From Aliidiomarina haloalkalitolerans (GTDB taxonomy: Bacteria > Pseudomonadota > Gammaproteobacteria > Enterobacterales > Alteromonadaceae): 64,000 nucleotides of DNA. Made by a program: the position numbers and the translations under genes. The DNA is taken from positions 124,001 through 188,000 of the forward strand of contig NZ_PIPI01000003.1 in assembly GCF_003987315.1 (NCBI RefSeq). The letters run 5' to 3'. Shown in pieces: positions 36,497 to 43,159 of this stretch; position 1 is the stretch's first letter, and each line of letters starts with the position of its first letter. The notes under the pieces are model-generated. The model did no database searches, was not told the DNA's origin, and worked only from the letters and a program-made list of their open reading frames with translations.

Positions 36497-36524
36497 TTGC
36501 AAAGCAAGCTAACTTCGTTATACT
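36497..36524 (+). promoter_or_regulatory. Promoter for the thiamine operon
   Basis: TTGCAA (36497-36502) and TATACT (36519-36524), 16 bases apart, lie about 30 bases before the TPP aptamer. They match 4/6 and 5/6 of consensus. Confidence 0.6.
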
Positions 36525-36554
36525 GCGGCCGCTGCAGTCCGTAACTGCAAGCAA

Positions 36555-36661
36555 ATTACCAAAGGGGTGCCTCGCTTCAAAATATGTGAAGCAACGGCTG
36601 AGATACAAGATGTGAACCCTTTGTACCTGATCCGGTTAATACTGGCGTAGGGATTGGTAAT
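36555..36661 (+). ncRNA. TPP (thiamine pyrophosphate) riboswitch aptamer
   Basis: Classic THI element. The P1 stem is ATTACCA (36555-36561) with TGGTAAT (36655-36661). GGGGTGCC (36564-36571), CTGAGAT (36598-36604), ACCCTTTG then ACCTGATCCGG, and TAATACTGGCGTAGGGA (ending at 36653) follow in the canonical order. When TPP is bound, expression of the downstream thiamine-uptake operon is expected to fall. Confidence 0.96.
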
Positions 36662-36668
36662 GAACATC

Positions 36669-36764
36669 TGTAATTGTGTCGATCTCTAGTGCAACAATTA
36701 CATACCCACCAATTTACGCAGAACCGGATCTCATTCTTTTTTGGAGTTTAGGAAGAAGAGATCC
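36669..36764 (+). promoter_or_regulatory. Riboswitch expression platform hiding the ribosome site
   Basis: Two hairpins follow the aptamer. The first has a perfect 9-bp stem TGTAATTGT/ACAATTACA (36669-36677, 36694-36702). The second is a 12-bp stem with one bulged A: GGATCTC-a-TTCTT (36726-36738) against AAGAAGAGATCC (36753-36764), ending 3 bases before the start codon and covering the purine-rich GGAAGAAGAG ribosome site. The loop of the first hairpin carries a second copy of GATCTCT (36681-36687), also complementary to AGAGATC (36757-36763). Control of translation, rather than termination, is inferred; no U-tract follows either hairpin. Confidence 0.6.
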
Positions 36765-36767
36765 ATC

Positions 36768-38879
36768 ATGAAATTAAATCCCATCACATTAGCACTTTTT
36801 ACTGCCCTAGCTGTTCCTGCAGCGGCTGTTCCAACTGCGTCAGCAGAATCTGACGAGCAGAACATCGAACGTATTACTGTCCAAGGCGAGTTCCGCAATC
36901 GCGGCATTGAAGATGTTGCCGCAAGTGTTTCAGTTTTATCCGCTGAAGACATGCAACAACGCCAAGCGGAGCATTTAGAAGCAGCGTTACTCATGGCCCC
37001 CAATGTTAATTTAGCGGCCGGTGCATCGCGCGCGAGCTTTGTCCAAATTCGTGGTATTGGTGAACGCAGTCAATTTGTTGACCCAATTAATCCTTCAGTT
37101 GGGCTGATGCTCGACGGTATTAATTACAGTGGCTTAGGCTCAGCAGGTCTGTTGTTCGATATTGGCCAAGTTGAGGTATTTCGCGGTCCGCAAAGCACTC
37201 GATTTGGTGCAGACGCCATGGCTGGTATGATTTACATGAGTAGCCAAGCGCTTGAAATGGATGCCAATGGTCAATTTGAGGCGATGCTTGCTAATTACAA
37301 TAGTCGTAGACTTGGGCTCGCCTATGGTGCGAGTGCAAGTGAAGACTTTTTGTGGCGCGGCTCACTGTTTGGCTACCAAAGTGACGGCTTTATCGAAAAT
37401 ATTCACTTAGGCCGCAAAGATACCCAAAACCACGATGAAATCACCTTGCGTCTCAATGCCCGTTGGCTATTGAGTGAGCAGTGGACCGCAGATTTCACCT
37501 ACCATCATTTTAATCTCGACAATGGTTACGATGCTTGGAGTCTCGATCGCAATCGCCAAACCTTGTCCGACACGCCAGGCAAAGATACCTTAGACAGCCA
37601 TGCTGGCCGCATCGCATTGAACTACCTCAGTGATGCAGGTTTTGAATTGCAGCTGATGACCAGTTATTTAACCGCGGACTCGGAATATAGCTTCGACGAA
37701 GACTGGGCATTTGAAGGCATTCGTCCGGGTTGGGAATACAATTCATGGGACGCTTATTATCGCCAGCGTGACCAATTGGAACTGGAAGCTCGCATTCTTT
37801 CTGCTGCCCCCATCCAATTCGGTTCGATCGCCACTGACTGGTTGGTTGGTGTGTACCGGCAAGAGCGCACGCAAGATTTGGATCGGGACTACACCTATTT
37901 AAGTGCGCCATTTAGCAGTCAATACGACACCGAACGCACTGCGGTCTATGGTGAACTTCAGCAACAGCTGAGTGACCGTTTGCGACTAACTTACGGAGTT
38001 CGCTGGGAGCGTTACGACAACGATTACCGCGATAGTCGTGGGATTACTGCAGCACCGAAAGATGACGCCTGGGGTGGCCGGGCGAGTCTCGAGTATCAAT
38101 TGGCACCGATGCAGTCATTCTACACGTCACTTACCCGAGGCTTTAAAGGTGGTGGTGTAAACGGGGAAGCACTCGGTCGCGTCGAAGACCGTAACCTGGA
38201 AGATCATCGTGAGTTTTTGCAGTCACGAGCAACCTTTGACTCTGAATACTTAACGAATCTTGAATTCGGTTATAAAGCGTTTTTACCGGAGCAAAATTTG
38301 TCAGTTCAGCTCAATGCTTTCTATAGCTGGCGCGACGACATGCAAGTGAATGCCTACGTTGAGCGTAACGCTGTGTTTGTCACCTATGTCGATAACGCTT
38401 CCGATGGCAACAACTATGGCGTTGAAGCACAACTTGATTGGCTCCCCACCGAAGCGCTGCGAGTTTTCGTCAACCTAGGCTGGTTAGAAACTGAGTTTAA
38501 TGACCTCGTTTTGCGTGATGGCACGAAGCTCCGTGGCCGCGATCAGGCCCATGCTCCAAACTGGCAGTTGCATGTCGGCGGTGAGTACTCACTACCGCAA
38601 AATTGGATGTTGCGATTGGAACTTGATGGCCGTGACCGGTTCTACTATTCGAATAGCCATGATCAACAATCGTCAGCTTATGGCCTGTTGCACGCACGCT
38701 TAAGCAAAACAGTACAAAACTGGGAGTTTAGTATTTGGGCGCGTAATCTTCTCGACAAAGACTACACCACTCGTGGCTTCTACTTCGGTAACGACCCACG
38801 CAAGGACTATGTTGCGGAAAATTACATTCAGTTTGGTGAACCGCGTCGTGTCGGGGTGACCGCTCGTTATCGTTTCTAA
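36768..38879 (+). CDS. TonB-dependent receptor, probably for thiamine
   Basis: Outer-membrane active transporter of 703 residues. A signal peptide is cleaved about after ASA (residue 23). A TonB box-like stretch (ERITVQGEF) leads into the plug domain (about 30-155, with VQIRGIGERSQFVDPINPSVGLMLDGI and VEVFRGPQSTRFGADAMAG), followed by the 22-strand beta barrel ending in an aromatic residue (ARYRF). ATG 36768 is chosen for its signal peptide and riboswitch spacing. Regulation by a TPP riboswitch and linkage to a PnuC-type permease argue that the cargo is thiamine or a derivative. No siderophore genes are nearby. Confidence 0.88.
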   Translation: MKLNPITLALFTALAVPAAAVPTASAESDEQNIERITVQGEFRNRGIEDVAASVSVLSAEDMQQRQAEHLEAALLMAPNVNLAAGASRASFVQIRGIGERSQFVDPINPSVGLMLDGINYSGLGSAGLLFDIGQVEVFRGPQSTRFGADAMAGMIYMSSQALEMDANGQFEAMLANYNSRRLGLAYGASASEDFLWRGSLFGYQSDGFIENIHLGRKDTQNHDEITLRLNARWLLSEQWTADFTYHHFNLDNGYDAWSLDRNRQTLSDTPGKDTLDSHAGRIALNYLSDAGFELQLMTSYLTADSEYSFDEDWAFEGIRPGWEYNSWDAYYRQRDQLELEARILSAAPIQFGSIATDWLVGVYRQERTQDLDRDYTYLSAPFSSQYDTERTAVYGELQQQLSDRLRLTYGVRWERYDNDYRDSRGITAAPKDDAWGGRASLEYQLAPMQSFYTSLTRGFKGGGVNGEALGRVEDRNLEDHREFLQSRATFDSEYLTNLEFGYKAFLPEQNLSVQLNAFYSWRDDMQVNAYVERNAVFVTYVDNASDGNNYGVEAQLDWLPTEALRVFVNLGWLETEFNDLVLRDGTKLRGRDQAHAPNWQLHVGGEYSLPQNWMLRLELDGRDRFYYSNSHDQQSSAYGLLHARLSKTVQNWEFSIWARNLLDKDYTTRGFYFGNDPRKDYVAENYIQFGEPRRVGVTARYRF

Positions 38880-38946
38880 ACATGCAGTAGGGGTAGAGTG
38901 CGAGAGTGAGAGCTCGCACTCTGCCCACTTTTAAGAGGAAAAAACG

Positions 38947-39201
38947 ATGCAATTATCCGCAGAAATTAGTTTGTACCCACTGGCCGCTGAGTATCGGGCC
39001 ATCATTGGTGAGTTTGTTGAACGTTTAGCACAATATGATGAATTAACGGTGAACACCAATACCATGAGTACCCAGATTTTTGGTGAGTACCGCACCTTGA
39101 TGACAATTTTAACCGACGAACTTGAGCGTGTTTATCAGCAGGTGCCGTCGCAAGTTCTGGTTTGTAAATTTATTAACCGTGACTTAAACCCGCATGGATA
39201 A
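38947..39201 (+). CDS. YkoF-like thiamine-binding protein
   Basis: Small protein (84 residues) of the MTH1187/YkoF thiamine-binding family. A single ferredoxin-like domain with AEISLYPLAAEYRAIIGEFVERL, a middle NTMSTQIFGEY (the S-T...G-E motif that surrounds the ligand) and a terminal strand QVLVCKFINRDL. There is no signal peptide, so it is cytoplasmic. In Bacillus, YkoF accompanies an HMP/thiamine ABC transporter; here it sits between a TonB receptor and a PnuC-type permease. AGAGG precedes its ATG; the next gene starts within its last codons. Confidence 0.8.
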   Translation: MQLSAEISLYPLAAEYRAIIGEFVERLAQYDELTVNTNTMSTQIFGEYRTLMTILTDELERVYQQVPSQVLVCKFINRDLNPHG

Positions 39202-39838
39202 ACTTGTTGAATTACTGGCATTGTCGTCCACCGCTGAACTGATTGCGGTGGCGATGGCGATTGCTTATGTGTTGCTCGCCATCCGCCAAAGTTTGTGGTG
39301 TTGGCCAGCGGCAATTATCAGTGCCAGTATTTATACCGTGCTGTTCTTTCAAGGCCGTCTATACATGGAAACCCTCTTACAGGTCTTTTACGTGGTGATG
39401 GCCGTGTATGGCTACTGGTCTTGGCGTTACAGCAGCGCTGCCCAAAGCGCGCAAACGGAACAATTACCGATTGGACGTAAGTCGTGGCAATGGCATCTGC
39501 AATGGGGCTTAGTTTTATTGCCACTCAGCCTCGCGATTGCCTGGTTATTACAGCGTTATACCGATGCAGATTTTGCTTATCTCGATTCGATTACCACGGT
39601 ATTTAGTTTCTTTGCGACGTTTCTCGTGGCCAGAAAGCTTTTAGAAAACTGGCTTTATTGGATAGTAATTGATTTACTATACGTGGGTTTATTTTGGTTT
39701 AAGGGCTTTCACGCGACGGCGGTGTTGTTTGCGATTTACACAATCATGGCCATCGTGGGTTACTTAAAGTGGCGTCAAGCGCTGCAAAGCCAGCCAACAC
39801 ATAAAACCACAGTGAGCATGGAAACAGTTGCAGAATAA
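39194..39838 (+). CDS. pnuT: PnuC/PnuT-family permease, probably for thiamine
   Basis: Inner-membrane facilitator of 214 residues with about seven hydrophobic segments. PnuC-family marks are IRQSLWCWPAAIISASIYTVLFFQGRLYMETLLQVFYVVMAVYGYWSWR and the late ENWLYWIVIDLLYVGLFWFKG. PnuC proteins move NMN/nicotinamide riboside, whereas the PnuT subgroup, defined by TPP-riboswitch linkage and a neighbouring thiamine kinase, moves thiamine; this gene has both context marks. It overlaps the YkoF-like gene by 8 bases. Uptake would be by facilitated diffusion, with phosphorylation trapping the substrate. Confidence 0.82.
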   Translation: MDKLVELLALSSTAELIAVAMAIAYVLLAIRQSLWCWPAAIISASIYTVLFFQGRLYMETLLQVFYVVMAVYGYWSWRYSSAAQSAQTEQLPIGRKSWQWHLQWGLVLLPLSLAIAWLLQRYTDADFAYLDSITTVFSFFATFLVARKLLENWLYWIVIDLLYVGLFWFKGFHATAVLFAIYTIMAIVGYLKWRQALQSQPTHKTTVSMETVAE

Positions 39839-39895
39839 GGAGATTGTCCGCAGACTATAACGTTATGTAGTAATCGATGATGGGATCTCAAGACT

Positions 39896-40738
39896 ATGGC
39901 ATTTCCAACAAGTTGTTTAGCGCACCTGCCGGTGCATGGTGTTTGGAAAACCCACCCCATTGGCCATGACCTCGCCAACTGTACGTGGCGGATTGAGAAT
40001 GGCGAGCATCAATATATTGTTAAGCAATACTCTCATGACGCTGCTTTTGGCCGTCAAACTGGCGACACCATTCAGCTTGACGCCTTACTTGCCGAACAAG
40101 GTATCGCTCCAGCGGTGGTTTACGCAGATGAGATGACTGGTGTGACGGTTCAAGAGTTTCTCACCGGTGATGTCGTCGCCAGTATCTTTGACCCGATTCA
40201 GCGGGCAGAACAATTGGCTGAAGCGCAACTGCAGGTGCATCAGCTTGGTGTTGACGTTCGGCCTTGGTCGCTCAGTGAGCGTGTGCAAGCTTATTGCAAT
40301 GCACTCGAGGAGCTGAAACCTGGGCGTGGGCGGGAAGCGCGCAGTGACTGTGAAAGTTATGCCAACTTGTTTTCAGCTTGGGAGCATGGGCCGCGAGTTT
40401 TTTGTCATCATGATTTAAGCGCTGAGCATGTTTTTTTTCGTCCTGAGCTAAAAATAATTGACTGGGAATATGCAGGTTATGGTCATCCCGCGTTCGATGT
40501 TGCCTCCACGATCGTGATCAATGATTTGTACGATGACGAAATCGACACATTTATCGAAACCTATAACCAGTCAGCGAAACACATGATCGATCGCGAAGGA
40601 TTGCGCGACTGGATCCGACTCGTGGCCTTGATTAATCGGATATGGTTCCAGCTTCAGGAAGCGTTAGAGGCTGCAGAGGCAGAGAAACGTGAGCAGAAAG
40701 CAACCGCAGCCGACAGTGAGCAAACAACAACAGCCTAA
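39896..40738 (+). CDS. Thiamine/choline-kinase-like phosphotransferase
   Basis: APH-fold kinase of 280 residues, likely to phosphorylate imported thiamine. Visible are the N-lobe lysine of YIVKQY (residue 43), the catalytic loop HHDLSAEH (171-178) with catalytic Asp173, and the metal-binding IIDWEYAGYG with Asp189. The second magnesium ligand of the Brenner motif, normally Asn five residues after the catalytic Asp, is His178 here. The C-terminal tail is Glu/Ala-rich. It is 57 bases after the permease gene, in a TPP-controlled unit; the ThiK assignment rests on context and fold, not on a specific signature. Confidence 0.72.
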   Translation: MAFPTSCLAHLPVHGVWKTHPIGHDLANCTWRIENGEHQYIVKQYSHDAAFGRQTGDTIQLDALLAEQGIAPAVVYADEMTGVTVQEFLTGDVVASIFDPIQRAEQLAEAQLQVHQLGVDVRPWSLSERVQAYCNALEELKPGRGREARSDCESYANLFSAWEHGPRVFCHHDLSAEHVFFRPELKIIDWEYAGYGHPAFDVASTIVINDLYDDEIDTFIETYNQSAKHMIDREGLRDWIRLVALINRIWFQLQEALEAAEAEKREQKATAADSEQTTTA

Positions 40739-40773
40739 TTTCACCTCACTGTTAACTAAGCAGGGGAGCATGT

Positions 40774-42120
40774 ATGGCAAATCGTCAGCGTGAAGACAAT
40801 CATATCGCCGAGCGAGTCTACGGCTATTTAGCGGAAGACGAAGACGCGCGGGTGTGCAAAGATATTCCCGACGAGGCCTGCAGTGAGCAACCGACGGCCT
40901 TTATTCTGCACCTTTGGAGCTTGACCTTAACGAAATTGGGTGACTCTCTCGTCAGCGCTCGCTTAGTCCTACCTTGGATGCTTTCGGTAGCCGGCGCTCC
41001 CGCCTTTTTCATCAGTATGCTCGTACCATTGCGCGAATCGCTGTCCCTATTACCACAATTGTTTGTTGCGCAGCGCATGCGTGAAAAACCAGTGCGGAAA
41101 TGGTTTTGGGTGGTCGGTAGTCTCGGCCAAGCAGCGGCATTAGTGTTGATTGTTTGCGGCTTAATCATGCTCAATAGCGGTGCATTCTCAGCGCTCGCAT
41201 TTGGTTGGTGGACGATAGCTTGGTTGGTGGTTTTCAGTCTGGCTCGCGGTATTTGCTCGGTAGCCAGTAAAGATGTCCTTGGCAAAACCATTTCGAAAAC
41301 ACGACGAGGCCGTTTAACTGGGCTAGCAGCAACGACCGCTGGGTTCATGACCTTAGCGACTGCTACGCTGATACTCTTCGCTCCTGACGTTGAAGGCAGC
41401 CTGATACTATTTATTGGTTTGTTTAGCGCTGCAGCAGTCCTCTGGCTGCTTGCTGCAATAAGTTATGCGCGCATTCCCGAAGTTCCAGGTGCCACTAGTG
41501 GCGGCGGAAATGCGATAACCGAAGCACTGCAATCGCTGCGGCTACTTTGGGAAGACAAGCAGTTTGGTCAGTTTGTACTTACCCGAGCACTGTTAGTGTC
41601 CTCAGCGTTCTCGATTCCCTACATTGTGGTGTTAATTCAACGCCAAACCGACGGTGTCTTAACTGGCTTGGGTGGGTTACTTTTGGCTAGTGGTCTCGCC
41701 GGCATGCTGGCTGGACGTTTCTGGGGAAAATGGTCCGATAGTGCCAGTCATCAAGTCATGGCAGCCGCGGCTTTCATGGCCTCTGCTGTGATGGCGTTAA
41801 CGTTATTGGTTAATTGGGCGAATGCGGAATGGCTTGGCTTGAGCCTAGTTGGTGGCGGCCTTATTTTTCTTGCTGCAGTGGCGCATCATGGCGCCCGAGT
41901 GGGTCGCAAAACTTATTTAGTGGACATGGCCACGCAAGAAAACCGAGCGCAGTATACGGCTGTCAGCAACACCGTCATTGGAGCTTTGCTGTTGCTGGGT
42001 ATGTTGCTCGGTATTCTGGATGAATTGTTTGGCACCGCAATGGTCCTAGTGCTACTCATCGCGGTGGGTGTCATTGCAGGCGTCCGTGCCTTAACATTAC
42101 CAAACGTGACTGCGGATTAA
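40774..42120 (+). CDS. MFS transporter
   Basis: Major facilitator superfamily permease of 448 residues. After a hydrophilic N-terminus (about 45 residues with a Cys pair), about 12 hydrophobic segments follow, with a [10 protein letters not shown] loop between halves 1 and 2 and a cytoplasmic loop near 240-265. The substrate is not recognisable. GGGGAG precedes the ATG, and the gene begins 35 bases after the kinase with no terminator between, so it may be the last gene of the thiamine operon. It is convergent with trhO, their stop codons overlapping. Confidence 0.8.
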
Positions 42121-43037
42121 CCTTCGAGACGACCGTCGCGAATGTGCTTCTCACCGCGTTGTTTCGCAAGCTGGATTTGCTTTTCCCGCTCGGCAAAACG
42201 TTGCTTTTGGTCGGGCGTTGTTTTGTCATAACAGTGCGGACAGCTCACGCCTTTCTGATACAACTCAGAGGCCATTTCTGCAGCCGTAATTGGCATCCGA
42301 CAAGCGTAGCACTGATCGTAAGAACCCTGTTCAAGACCATGTTTAACAGTCACTCGTTGGTCGAAAACAAAGCACTCGCCGTCCCACATGCTTTCTTCGG
42401 CAGGAACTTCTTCTAAGTACTTTAAAATACCGCCTTGCAGGTGGTAGACCTCATTGAAGCCAAGTTCTTTTAGGTAAGCCGTCGACTTTTCGCAGCGAAT
42501 GCCACCGGTACAGAACATCGCGACTTTTTTATGCTTGCCTTTGTCTAAATGCTGTTGCACATACTCAGGAAACTCGCGAAATGTTTCTGTTTTCGGGTTG
42601 ACTGCGCCTTTAAAGGTGCCAACCGCATACTCGTAGTCATTACGGGTATCGATGAGCAGAACCTCGGGATCACTAATAAGCTGATTCCACTCATGAGGTT
42701 TCACATAGGTTCCCACCACGTTCTTCGGATCGATCCAGTCGATACCCATGGTGACGATTTCTTTTTTCAGTTTAACTTTGGTGCGGTAAAACGCTTGCGT
42801 TTCACTGAGGGACTCTTTGTGTTCGATGTCAGCTAGACGCGGGTCGTTGCGCAACCATGCGAGGGTTGCATCAATGCCTTCTCGAGTACCACAAATGGTG
42901 CCGTTAATGCCTTCACGGGCTAGCAATAAAGTGCCTTTGACTTCGTGCTTAGCCATGACGTCGAACAAGGGCTGGCGTAATGCCTCATAATCATTGAGCT
43001 CGACAAACTTGTAGAGCGCAGCGCAGATGTATTGCAT
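42117..43037 (-). CDS. trhO: tRNA uridine(34) hydroxylase TrhO
   Basis: Rhodanese-family enzyme (306 residues) that, using molecular oxygen, makes 5-hydroxyuridine at the wobble position of certain tRNAs. It has an N-terminal ferredoxin-like acylphosphatase-type domain ([17 protein letters not shown]), a rhodanese domain with catalytic Cys176 ([11 protein letters not shown]), and a C-terminal Cys-rich zinc-like tail (CYACRMP and CPHCYDK). ATG 43037 is chosen by family start and AAAGG upstream; the frame extends 34 codons further. Confidence 0.93.
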
Positions 43038-43123
43038 AGGGTAGAAACCTTTCGTTAGCTGGCTGAAACGTAAATTCAGTGCCAGGTGCTTACCAATTGA
43101 TGTTTTGCGGGCGCGGATTATAC

Positions 43124-43159
43124 AAAAAAACGGCAACATGTGCGAATGTTGCCGTTTTT
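43124..43159 (-). terminator. Terminator after dps
   Basis: Perfect 9-bp stem CGGCAACAT/ATGTTGCCG (43131-43139, 43146-43154). On the minus strand it runs into seven T's, ending the dps transcript before trhO. It also has T's on the plus side. Confidence 0.85.

Follow-up and report, generated by a model that had tools for sequence, protein, structure and literature searches.

How does a cell that appears unable to make thiamine bring the vitamin in and hold on to it, and could a single locus carry most of that route? The question is raised by a 64,000-nucleotide stretch of the Aliidiomarina haloalkalitolerans genome (contig NZ_PIPI01000003.1, positions 124,001 to 188,000; "the window" below), in which five genes, all on the + strand, lie behind a thiamine pyrophosphate (TPP) riboswitch aptamer within 5.6 kb. 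The genes encode a TonB-dependent receptor, a small YkoF-like protein, a permease of the PnuC/PnuT family, an APH-fold kinase, and a permease of the major facilitator superfamily (MFS). We think it very probable that the locus is an operon for salvaging thiamine, that a TPP-sensing OFF switch controls its translation, and that the bacterium is, as predicted, auxotrophic for thiamine. The features of the locus, numbered as in the window, are:

36497..36524, + strand: candidate sigma-70 promoter TTGCAA-16-TATACT, placed just 5' of the aptamer (9 of 12 consensus matches)
36553..36670, + strand: TPP riboswitch aptamer, RF00059 (Rfam score of 72.5 bits; gathering score 54.3)
36722..36730, + strand: anti-aptamer box AACCGGATC, with its complement, GATCCGGTT, inside the aptamer (36629-36637)
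36726..36764, + strand: hairpin GGATCTC...GAGATCC over the receptor gene's ribosome-binding region, AGGAAGAAG, sharing GGATC with the anti-aptamer box
36768..38879, + strand: TonB-dependent receptor of the omr1/OMthi type, 703 amino acids (plug 63.3 bits, barrel 111.7 bits)
38890..38927, + strand: intercistronic hairpin with a 14-bp stem, loop AGTGAGAG, and tail ACTTTTAA without a longer U-run (from folding and shuffles)
38947..39201, + strand: YkoF-like single-domain protein, 84 amino acids (under the Pfam cut-off; fold match by Foldseek)
39194..39838, + strand: inner-membrane permease of the PnuC/PnuT family, 214 amino acids (PnuC family, 175.8 bits)
39896..40738, + strand: APH-fold kinase, thiamine-kinase-like, 280 amino acids (APH, 79.5 bits)
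40774..42120, + strand: MFS permease, 448 amino acids, a facultative member at the 3' end of the presumed transcript (Pfam MFS_1, 29.3 bits; MFS-fold model)

An earlier note, made from the letters of this DNA, had proposed the aptamer and the same five genes in the same order, with outer-membrane, inner-membrane, and trapping steps in one unit. Rfam, Pfam, NCBIfam, and fold models bear out the list and its order, and all three steps are present at the locus. The aptamer (E = 2.5e-12) is the only Rfam match at the gathering score in the window, and no other TPP match was found in the 2.68-Mb genome at E 0.001. As in omr1/OMthi receptors, the TonB-dependent receptor has both a plug and a barrel and lies directly under the TPP riboswitch and near a PnuT-type gene. 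Its matches to solved structures (11 at E ≤ 0.001) are receptors for pesticin, colicin I, and ferrichrome, and it presumably binds thiamine. It most likely starts at ATG 36768, which is the best candidate (the listed frame opens at TTG 36741). The permease belongs to the PnuC family, with PnuC (4qtn) as its single solved match, and the genomic context points to thiamine.

That the cargo is thiamine had been an inference in the earlier note, and the gene content of the cell now gives it a better foundation. Neither ThiC nor ThiE nor ThiG was found in the genome (29 contigs, 98.97% complete). In contrast, ThiL is present (336.1 bits), encoded away from the locus, so the cell should need intact thiamine. 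Also, the pyrimidine and thiazole precursors cannot be joined without ThiE, so the cargo should be thiamine or a close form; we rejected a precursor (hydroxymethylpyrimidine or thiazole) as the cargo in this genome for the same reason. A route to TPP via TPK was rejected as well, because a TPK domain was found in none of the 17 Aliidiomarina genomes that we compared (this one included). Similarly, no ThiB was above the cut-off in these 17 genomes (there were two weak matches, at 22.1 and 19.5 bits). thiC is absent from 12 of the 17, and the receptor tree places these genomes together in a single group (96/95), which is in keeping with a single loss. The other five have thiC, thiE, and thiG, and each of the five has a second TPP aptamer shortly ahead of thiC. 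(A weak match to ThiG in G013, at 18.9 bits, was under the cut-off.) Elsewhere in the Idiomarinaceae, thiC is present in 4 of 11 genomes.

We propose that the receptor would use TonB energy to bring thiamine through the outer membrane and that the PnuT-type permease would pass it across the inner membrane. The YkoF-like protein, which is probably cytosolic, would most likely bind thiamine and would either store it or relay it from the permease to the kinase. The kinase would make thiamine monophosphate (TMP) from thiamine, trapping it in the cell, and ThiL, encoded elsewhere, would convert TMP to TPP. In this species, the MFS gene would ride along as the last gene transcribed, and the route would not need it. 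What was computed here is the aptamer, the content and order of the genes, their conservation, the missing biosynthesis genes, the folds, and two competing helices; the cargo, its direction, binding by the YkoF-like protein, the substrate of the kinase, co-transcription of the genes, and switching between the helices are what we infer.

The gene set is conserved well beyond this genome. A TPP aptamer was present in 36 of the 38 genomes searched, with 52 matches, of which we examined 50 (the others are the aptamer described here and one in G022 that, at 50.1 bits, is under the cut-off). In 26 of the 36 genomes, a receptor and pnuT lie under an aptamer: all 17 of the genus, all 5 others of the family, and 4 of the 14 others of the order. 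The YkoF-like gene is present in 22 of these 26 loci and a kinase match in 25 (G017 has none, and the match is short and weak in G024 and G026). Our second sample, the named loci, is the best 80 of 433 relatives from a scan of named genomes with a YkoF-like profile (12 of the 80 repeat genus genomes). Here pnuT adjoins the YkoF-like gene in 76 loci, a kinase is present in 71, a receptor lies just upstream in 46, and a loose TPP motif lies upstream in 43. The four-gene core was also found in other Idiomarinaceae, Microbulbifer, Zhongshania, and others. As the order is kept in many genomes, it is not due to chance. The earlier note had suggested searching Idiomarinaceae genomes for the same gene order and for missing biosynthesis genes, and on both counts (conserved order, and the 12 genomes without thiC) the outcome agrees with it.

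An Rfam scan of the named loci covered 10 of the 80. Among the five Bacteroidetes loci, one has a TPP aptamer (L155, a Flavobacteriales contig, 607-994), with the aptamer, the YkoF-like gene, and pnuT in a row. Five ykoF-pnuT-kinase loci from Pseudoalteromonas (L108, L110, L116, L132, and L144) had no TPP aptamer at the Rfam cut-off. Among those five, L144 alone has a receptor next door.

How would the riboswitch act? In the leader, AACCGGATC can pair with GATCCGGTT of the aptamer, and this helix can be lengthened by ACCAATTTACGC, which would pair with GCGTA..GATTGGT. The GGATC of the anti-aptamer box is also the first part of the hairpin that covers AGGAAGAAG. The anti-aptamer helix and the ribosome-site hairpin are mutually exclusive, as expected of an expression platform. 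The hairpin is not followed by a U-run, so the leader most plausibly controls translation and is best seen as a conserved translational OFF switch. If TPP is scarce, then the aptamer's 3' half (GATCCGGTT...GATTGGT) would pair with the downstream ACCAATTTACGC..AACCGGATC, which would remove GGATC from the ribosome-hiding hairpin and let the receptor be translated. If TPP is bound, then the aptamer would retain its 3' half, GGATCTC would pair with GAGATCC, and translation would stop. The two states are near equal in predicted energy (−59.2 and −58.0 kcal/mol), which fits a switch because a switch needs close energies.

Both helices, with at least seven bases in common, are present in all 17 leaders from the genus. 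Judged against single-base shuffles of these related sequences, the ribosome-site hairpin has p ≤ 0.05 in all 17 leaders and the anti-aptamer helix in 16 (the exception is G004, p = 0.075). The anti-aptamer helix also has p ≤ 0.05 in 25 of 31 other named leaders. The box and the hairpin are found in 43 of the 44 leaders that have a receptor and a TPP motif (L127 has no box). We aligned the hairpins of 34 of these 43 leaders, leaving out seven near-duplicates of kept ones and two with long loops (L093 and L094). In this alignment, 92.4% of the cells pair, and 4 of the 7 pairs change on both sides, which was equalled in 5 of 500 shuffles; the covariation score was reached in none of the 500.

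Several observations weigh against parts of this account. First, in the leader, the number of pair types in the hairpin is not above that of shuffles (84 of 500 were as high), and the hairpin has p ≤ 0.05 in only 3 of 9 outgroup leaders and in 18 of the 31 other named leaders (11 of 11 that are of the Idiomarina type and 7 of the remaining 20). Furthermore, the ribosome site is largely paired even if the anti-aptamer helix is forced (the unpaired probability is 0.10-0.58 per base), so in the energy model the site would be freed only in part and the ON state would stay weak. Second, the set is not uniform: in 37 of the 80 named loci a TPP motif is lacking upstream, and the YkoF-like gene is missing from 4 of the 26 receptor-pnuT loci (G013, G014, G024, and G033). 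Third come the family models. The permease is above the cut-off of NCBIfam's model for the nicotinamide riboside transporter PnuC (TIGR01528, 91.7 vs. 42.45), none of the models that we used tells PnuT and PnuC apart, and the NCBIfam scan gave no PnuT match. The best NCBIfam match of the kinase is thiamine kinase (TIGR02721, which is also the best match for the five relatives of the kinase that were tested), but its score of 87.8 bits is far below the cut-off of 299.45. The YkoF-like protein is under the Pfam cut-offs for both Thiamine_BP (21.0 vs. 24.9) and Ykof (18.2 vs. 21). Fourth, the ThiB test is narrow, as just 1 of 14 controls passed its cut-off, and gaps in the assembly might in principle hold the missing thiamine genes.

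The catalytic loop of the kinase is a further point against. APH kinases usually carry an HxDxxxxN loop, and here the loop is HHDLSAEH, with His at the usual position of Asn. The His is found in the kinases of all 17 genus genomes, and among the 71 kinases from named loci, 20 have His and 51 have Asn (four Idiomarina-type kinases are in the Asn set). In the kinase tree, the stem of the branch that leads to the 12 genomes without thiC is 1.46 changes per site long, as compared to 0.15 in the receptor tree. This long stem suggests that the kinase may have changed fast there, but because long branches are involved, we consider it a lead only.

Because both Pfam scores were under the cut-off, calling the 84-residue protein YkoF-like needed a test of its fold. 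An AlphaFold model, built with 51 sequences (its own and 50 from the 80 named loci), has a beta-alpha-beta-beta-alpha-beta arrangement with a predicted local distance difference test (pLDDT) score of 86.9. Foldseek gave 14 matches at E ≤ 0.001, namely MJ1052, SP2199, TM0486, a DUF77 protein, YBL001c, and MTH1187, which we take to be one family. YkoF ranks lower in this search (E = 0.009-0.010), and by sequence profile it is the best solved match (E = 1.2e-5). Compared with the YkoF/MTH1187 family (DUF77, Thiamine_BP), the template modeling (TM) scores, scaled to the query, are 0.74-0.76 for MJ1052, 0.77 for TM0486, 0.72 for MTH1187, and 0.71-0.75 for YkoF. In contrast, the YkoF chains in PDB have 180-200 residues, and the protein here is a single domain with sequence scores below the family cut-offs. 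The model indicates that the protein has a ferredoxin-like fold of the MTH1187/YkoF type, and the label that the earlier note had given it survives this test. We take the protein to be cytosolic because no signal peptide was evident by eye.

A broader role for this protein is possible, and we put it forward tentatively. The YkoF-like gene adjoins a pnuT-type gene in the 76 named loci counted above, five of them from Bacteroidetes, with one of these five directly under a TPP aptamer. The protein may be a soluble cytosolic thiamine carrier that is paired with PnuT-type facilitators in two phyla and that carries thiamine from the inner mouth of the permease to the phosphorylating enzyme, so that facilitated diffusion becomes efficient capture. 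In some Aliidiomarina, the intercistronic hairpin with its conserved loop would then set the ratio of the receptor to the capture module. In the passages of the single paper found on YkoF with PnuT, PnuT is a class of thiamine transporter and YkoF appears in the reference list, with no link between them, and this one search gave no test of a role for a YkoF-like protein in PnuT-driven uptake.

The five genes are presumably co-transcribed. ykoF and pnuT overlap by 8 nucleotides, and the remaining gaps, from the gene coordinates, are 67, 57, and 35 nucleotides. A scan for U-tailed terminators found three sites, all inside coding sequence and none between genes. The earlier note's statement that there is no visible terminator holds in this sense, but it overlooked the strong 14-bp hairpin between the receptor and ykoF genes. 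A promoter scan of the region found 4 sigma-70-like sites as compared to a mean of 6.1 in shuffles, which is not above chance. After the MFS gene there is a rhodanese-domain gene (42117-43139), which is on the opposite strand here but shares the strand of the operon in G012, G015, and G016.

Is the MFS gene part of the system? The protein is below the cut-off for MFS_1 (33.4), but its model (mean pLDDT of 79.7) has 294 PDB matches in Foldseek at E ≤ 0.001, and the 50 that were listed are all MFS transporters, judging from their titles. The model is therefore an MFS fold. A profile search against solved structures gave nothing useful. Conservation of the protein is high, at a mean column identity of 75% over 18 sequences. 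The earlier note had counted the gene in the set, and as a dependable member it does not hold up: only 23 of the 80 named loci have it, all of them Idiomarinaceae. An opposite-strand flagellin gene follows the kinase in 9 of the 17 genus genomes (L032, L035, L039, L040, L041, L043, L045, L048, and L049; Pfam was run on two of the nine). In 7 of the 9, the MFS gene lies beyond the flagellin gene, and the other 2 (G013 and G014) have no homologue. Two side observations are that a further opposite-strand frame lies beside the flagellin gene in L032 and L040 and that the MFS homologue in G004 (L035, 6018-7340) has one in-frame TAA.

We considered whether the MFS protein is nevertheless a true part of the thiamine route, either as a second inner-membrane importer or as an exporter of surplus thiamine or of a degradation product, and we judge this to be rather unlikely. 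The gene directly follows the kinase in 8 of the 17 genus genomes (this one included) and in all 11 loci from other Idiomarinaceae (L097-L107). In several cases the longest frames overlap. However, the block ubiD-fre-thi-mfs is syntenic, so the adjacency may be inherited order. Here the MFS gene has a GGGGAG ribosome site 35 nucleotides past the kinase stop (spacer 40739-40773), but elsewhere in the genus the flagellin gene intervenes, and the 2 genomes without the MFS gene keep the receptor, pnuT, and kinase. Outside Idiomarinaceae, none of the 57 other loci among the 80 has it, and the homologues in G018, G020, and G021 lie beside genes read as DUF72 and aspS, rimO, and others unrelated to thiamine. 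The first Foldseek hits are the choline transporters FLVCR1/2, which carry a quaternary amine, but these matches are weak (TM of 0.64-0.69, 14-15% identity) and are among 294 at E ≤ 0.001. The opposite view, based on the flagellin genes, that the MFS gene is unrelated to the thiamine route, was softened in light of the direct adjacency in Idiomarina loci. Although the MFS gene probably shares the transcript here, this does not demonstrate a shared function.

Next, the hairpin between the receptor and ykoF (GGGTAGAGTGCGAG-AGTGAGAG-CTCGCACTCTGCCC, with the fold at 38891-38926) has a predicted energy of −28.7 kcal/mol (z = −4.95, 0 of 200 shuffles). A hairpin lies at the same place in 5 of the 17 genus genomes (this one, G001, G003, G005, and G006), with different letters in the stem and similar loops (AGTGAGAG, ATGTGAGAG, or ATGTGTGAG). 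No comparable hairpin was found in 10 of the other 12 genus genomes, which have a short spacer; the remaining two, G013 and G014, have no ykoF. The idea of a dispersed repeat was rejected: a covariance model built from 3 copies and run on the 17 genomes at E ≤ 1 matched only one place each in G001, G003, G005, and G006. (In this search the model missed the copy in our genome, which it matched within the window at E = 0.0013.) The genomes with the hairpin do not all fall together in the receptor tree, where ours and G005 are with G012, G015, and G016 (89/85), but they are nearly one group in the kinase tree (96/92). Given these discordant trees, gain or loss of the hairpin is possible.

Such a stem could split the operon, with transcripts ending or being trimmed there and with ykoF to mfs being weakly expressed or having a second promoter. 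The strength of the stem, its recurrence at one position with a changed stem and a similar loop, and the four T shortly 3' of the stem at our locus are all compatible with this. It seems unlikely, because none of the five genomes has a run of at least 5 T just past the stem, because the other ykoF-bearing genomes of the genus have a short spacer without such a hairpin, and because there is no promoter-like site in the receptor-ykoF spacer. Rather than a terminator, the hairpin is more likely to be a processing or stabilizing element, and it may set the dose of the receptor against that of the inner genes.

Finally, the permease and the kinase could handle nicotinamide riboside or another nucleoside-like compound, with the TPP riboswitch signaling a general vitamin shortage, and the score above the PnuC equivalog cut-off and the sole solved match to PnuC fit this, but it is very improbable given that the TPP control, the partner with a YkoF/MTH1187 fold, and the thiamine-kinase-like enzyme all suggest thiamine, that no other source of thiamine is evident (the searches for thiC, thiE, thiG, and a ThiB importer were negative), and that, in the relevant passages of a Bacteroides study, PnuT carried thiamine in a heterologous host and its deletion had a phenotype (PMC5613172).

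How does this thiamine salvage operon compare to known systems? The TPP riboswitch of E. coli thiM is a translational OFF switch that hides the ribosome site. The leader described here resembles it in that respect but has another downstream gene and another alternative pairing. The founding paper is said to be that of Rodionov in 2002, and there is reportedly also work on PnuT from Shewanella woodyi.

The earlier note did not recall the set as a described system, but much of it is in print. In Bacteroides, according to passages of PMC5613172, OMthi, pnuT, and tnr3 are under TPP riboswitches and the three form one operon in most genomes. In B. thetaiotaomicron without thiamine biosynthesis, losing the receptor or pnuT raises the need for thiamine about tenfold (same passages). 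As in our locus, there is a TPP riboswitch, a TonB-type receptor, a PnuT-family permease, and a phosphorylating enzyme. However, the Bacteroides enzyme is Tnr3 (named thiamine pyrophosphorylase), whereas here there is an APH-fold kinase, with ThiL elsewhere and no TPK domain in the 17 genus genomes. Also, the YkoF-like and MFS genes are present here but not in what those passages say of the Bacteroides operons.

The locus also has a likely counterpart in Shewanella oneidensis. Excerpts from three sources describe SO2715 as a TonB receptor with TPP-riboswitch control (PMC2659441), assign it to a cluster of receptors for which thiamin is among the substrates listed (PMC3400609), and give SO2713 as the predicted thiamin transporter pnuT (PMC5955497). 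As here, a TPP riboswitch governs the receptor and pnuT is close by, in Shewanella at a distance of two locus tags. Judging from these locus tags rather than from sequence, SO2715/SO2713 is likely the same core locus, and from the numbering alone our guess is that SO2714 is the YkoF-like protein. Riboswitch regulon surveys gave no detail on this locus in the parts that we used (PMC3766115; PMC3223726), and in the material found on Idiomarina or Aliidiomarina with thiamin, nothing bears on it.

Because the core is already a recognized kind of locus, the surprise is limited. The value of the locus is that it gives a concrete, testable account of how a predicted vitamin B1 auxotroph would take the vitamin from the outside to the cofactor under one switch. 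It also draws attention to a small YkoF-like family beside pnuT in two phyla and to a clade of kinases with an altered catalytic loop.

Related receptors are known from marine communities. As described in part of PMC10881298, omr1, a TonB-type protein encoded near a TPP riboswitch, serves as a marker of possible B1 transport in sea water, with clusters from SAR86 and Flavobacteriales. The passages on omr1 of marine bacterioplankton mention no neighboring kinase or MFS gene, and they treat ykoF as a separate marker for B1 or hydroxymethylpyrimidine. Elsewhere, excerpts report TPP-regulated omr genes in metagenomes (PMC2211319) and note thiamin-assigned TonB receptors beside PnuT in a study of TonB transporters (PMC2771747). 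Set beside these systems, the locus in A. haloalkalitolerans is a real and well conserved operon for the uptake and trapping of thiamine, with a core of a known kind and with trimmings that are specific to the Idiomarinaceae.

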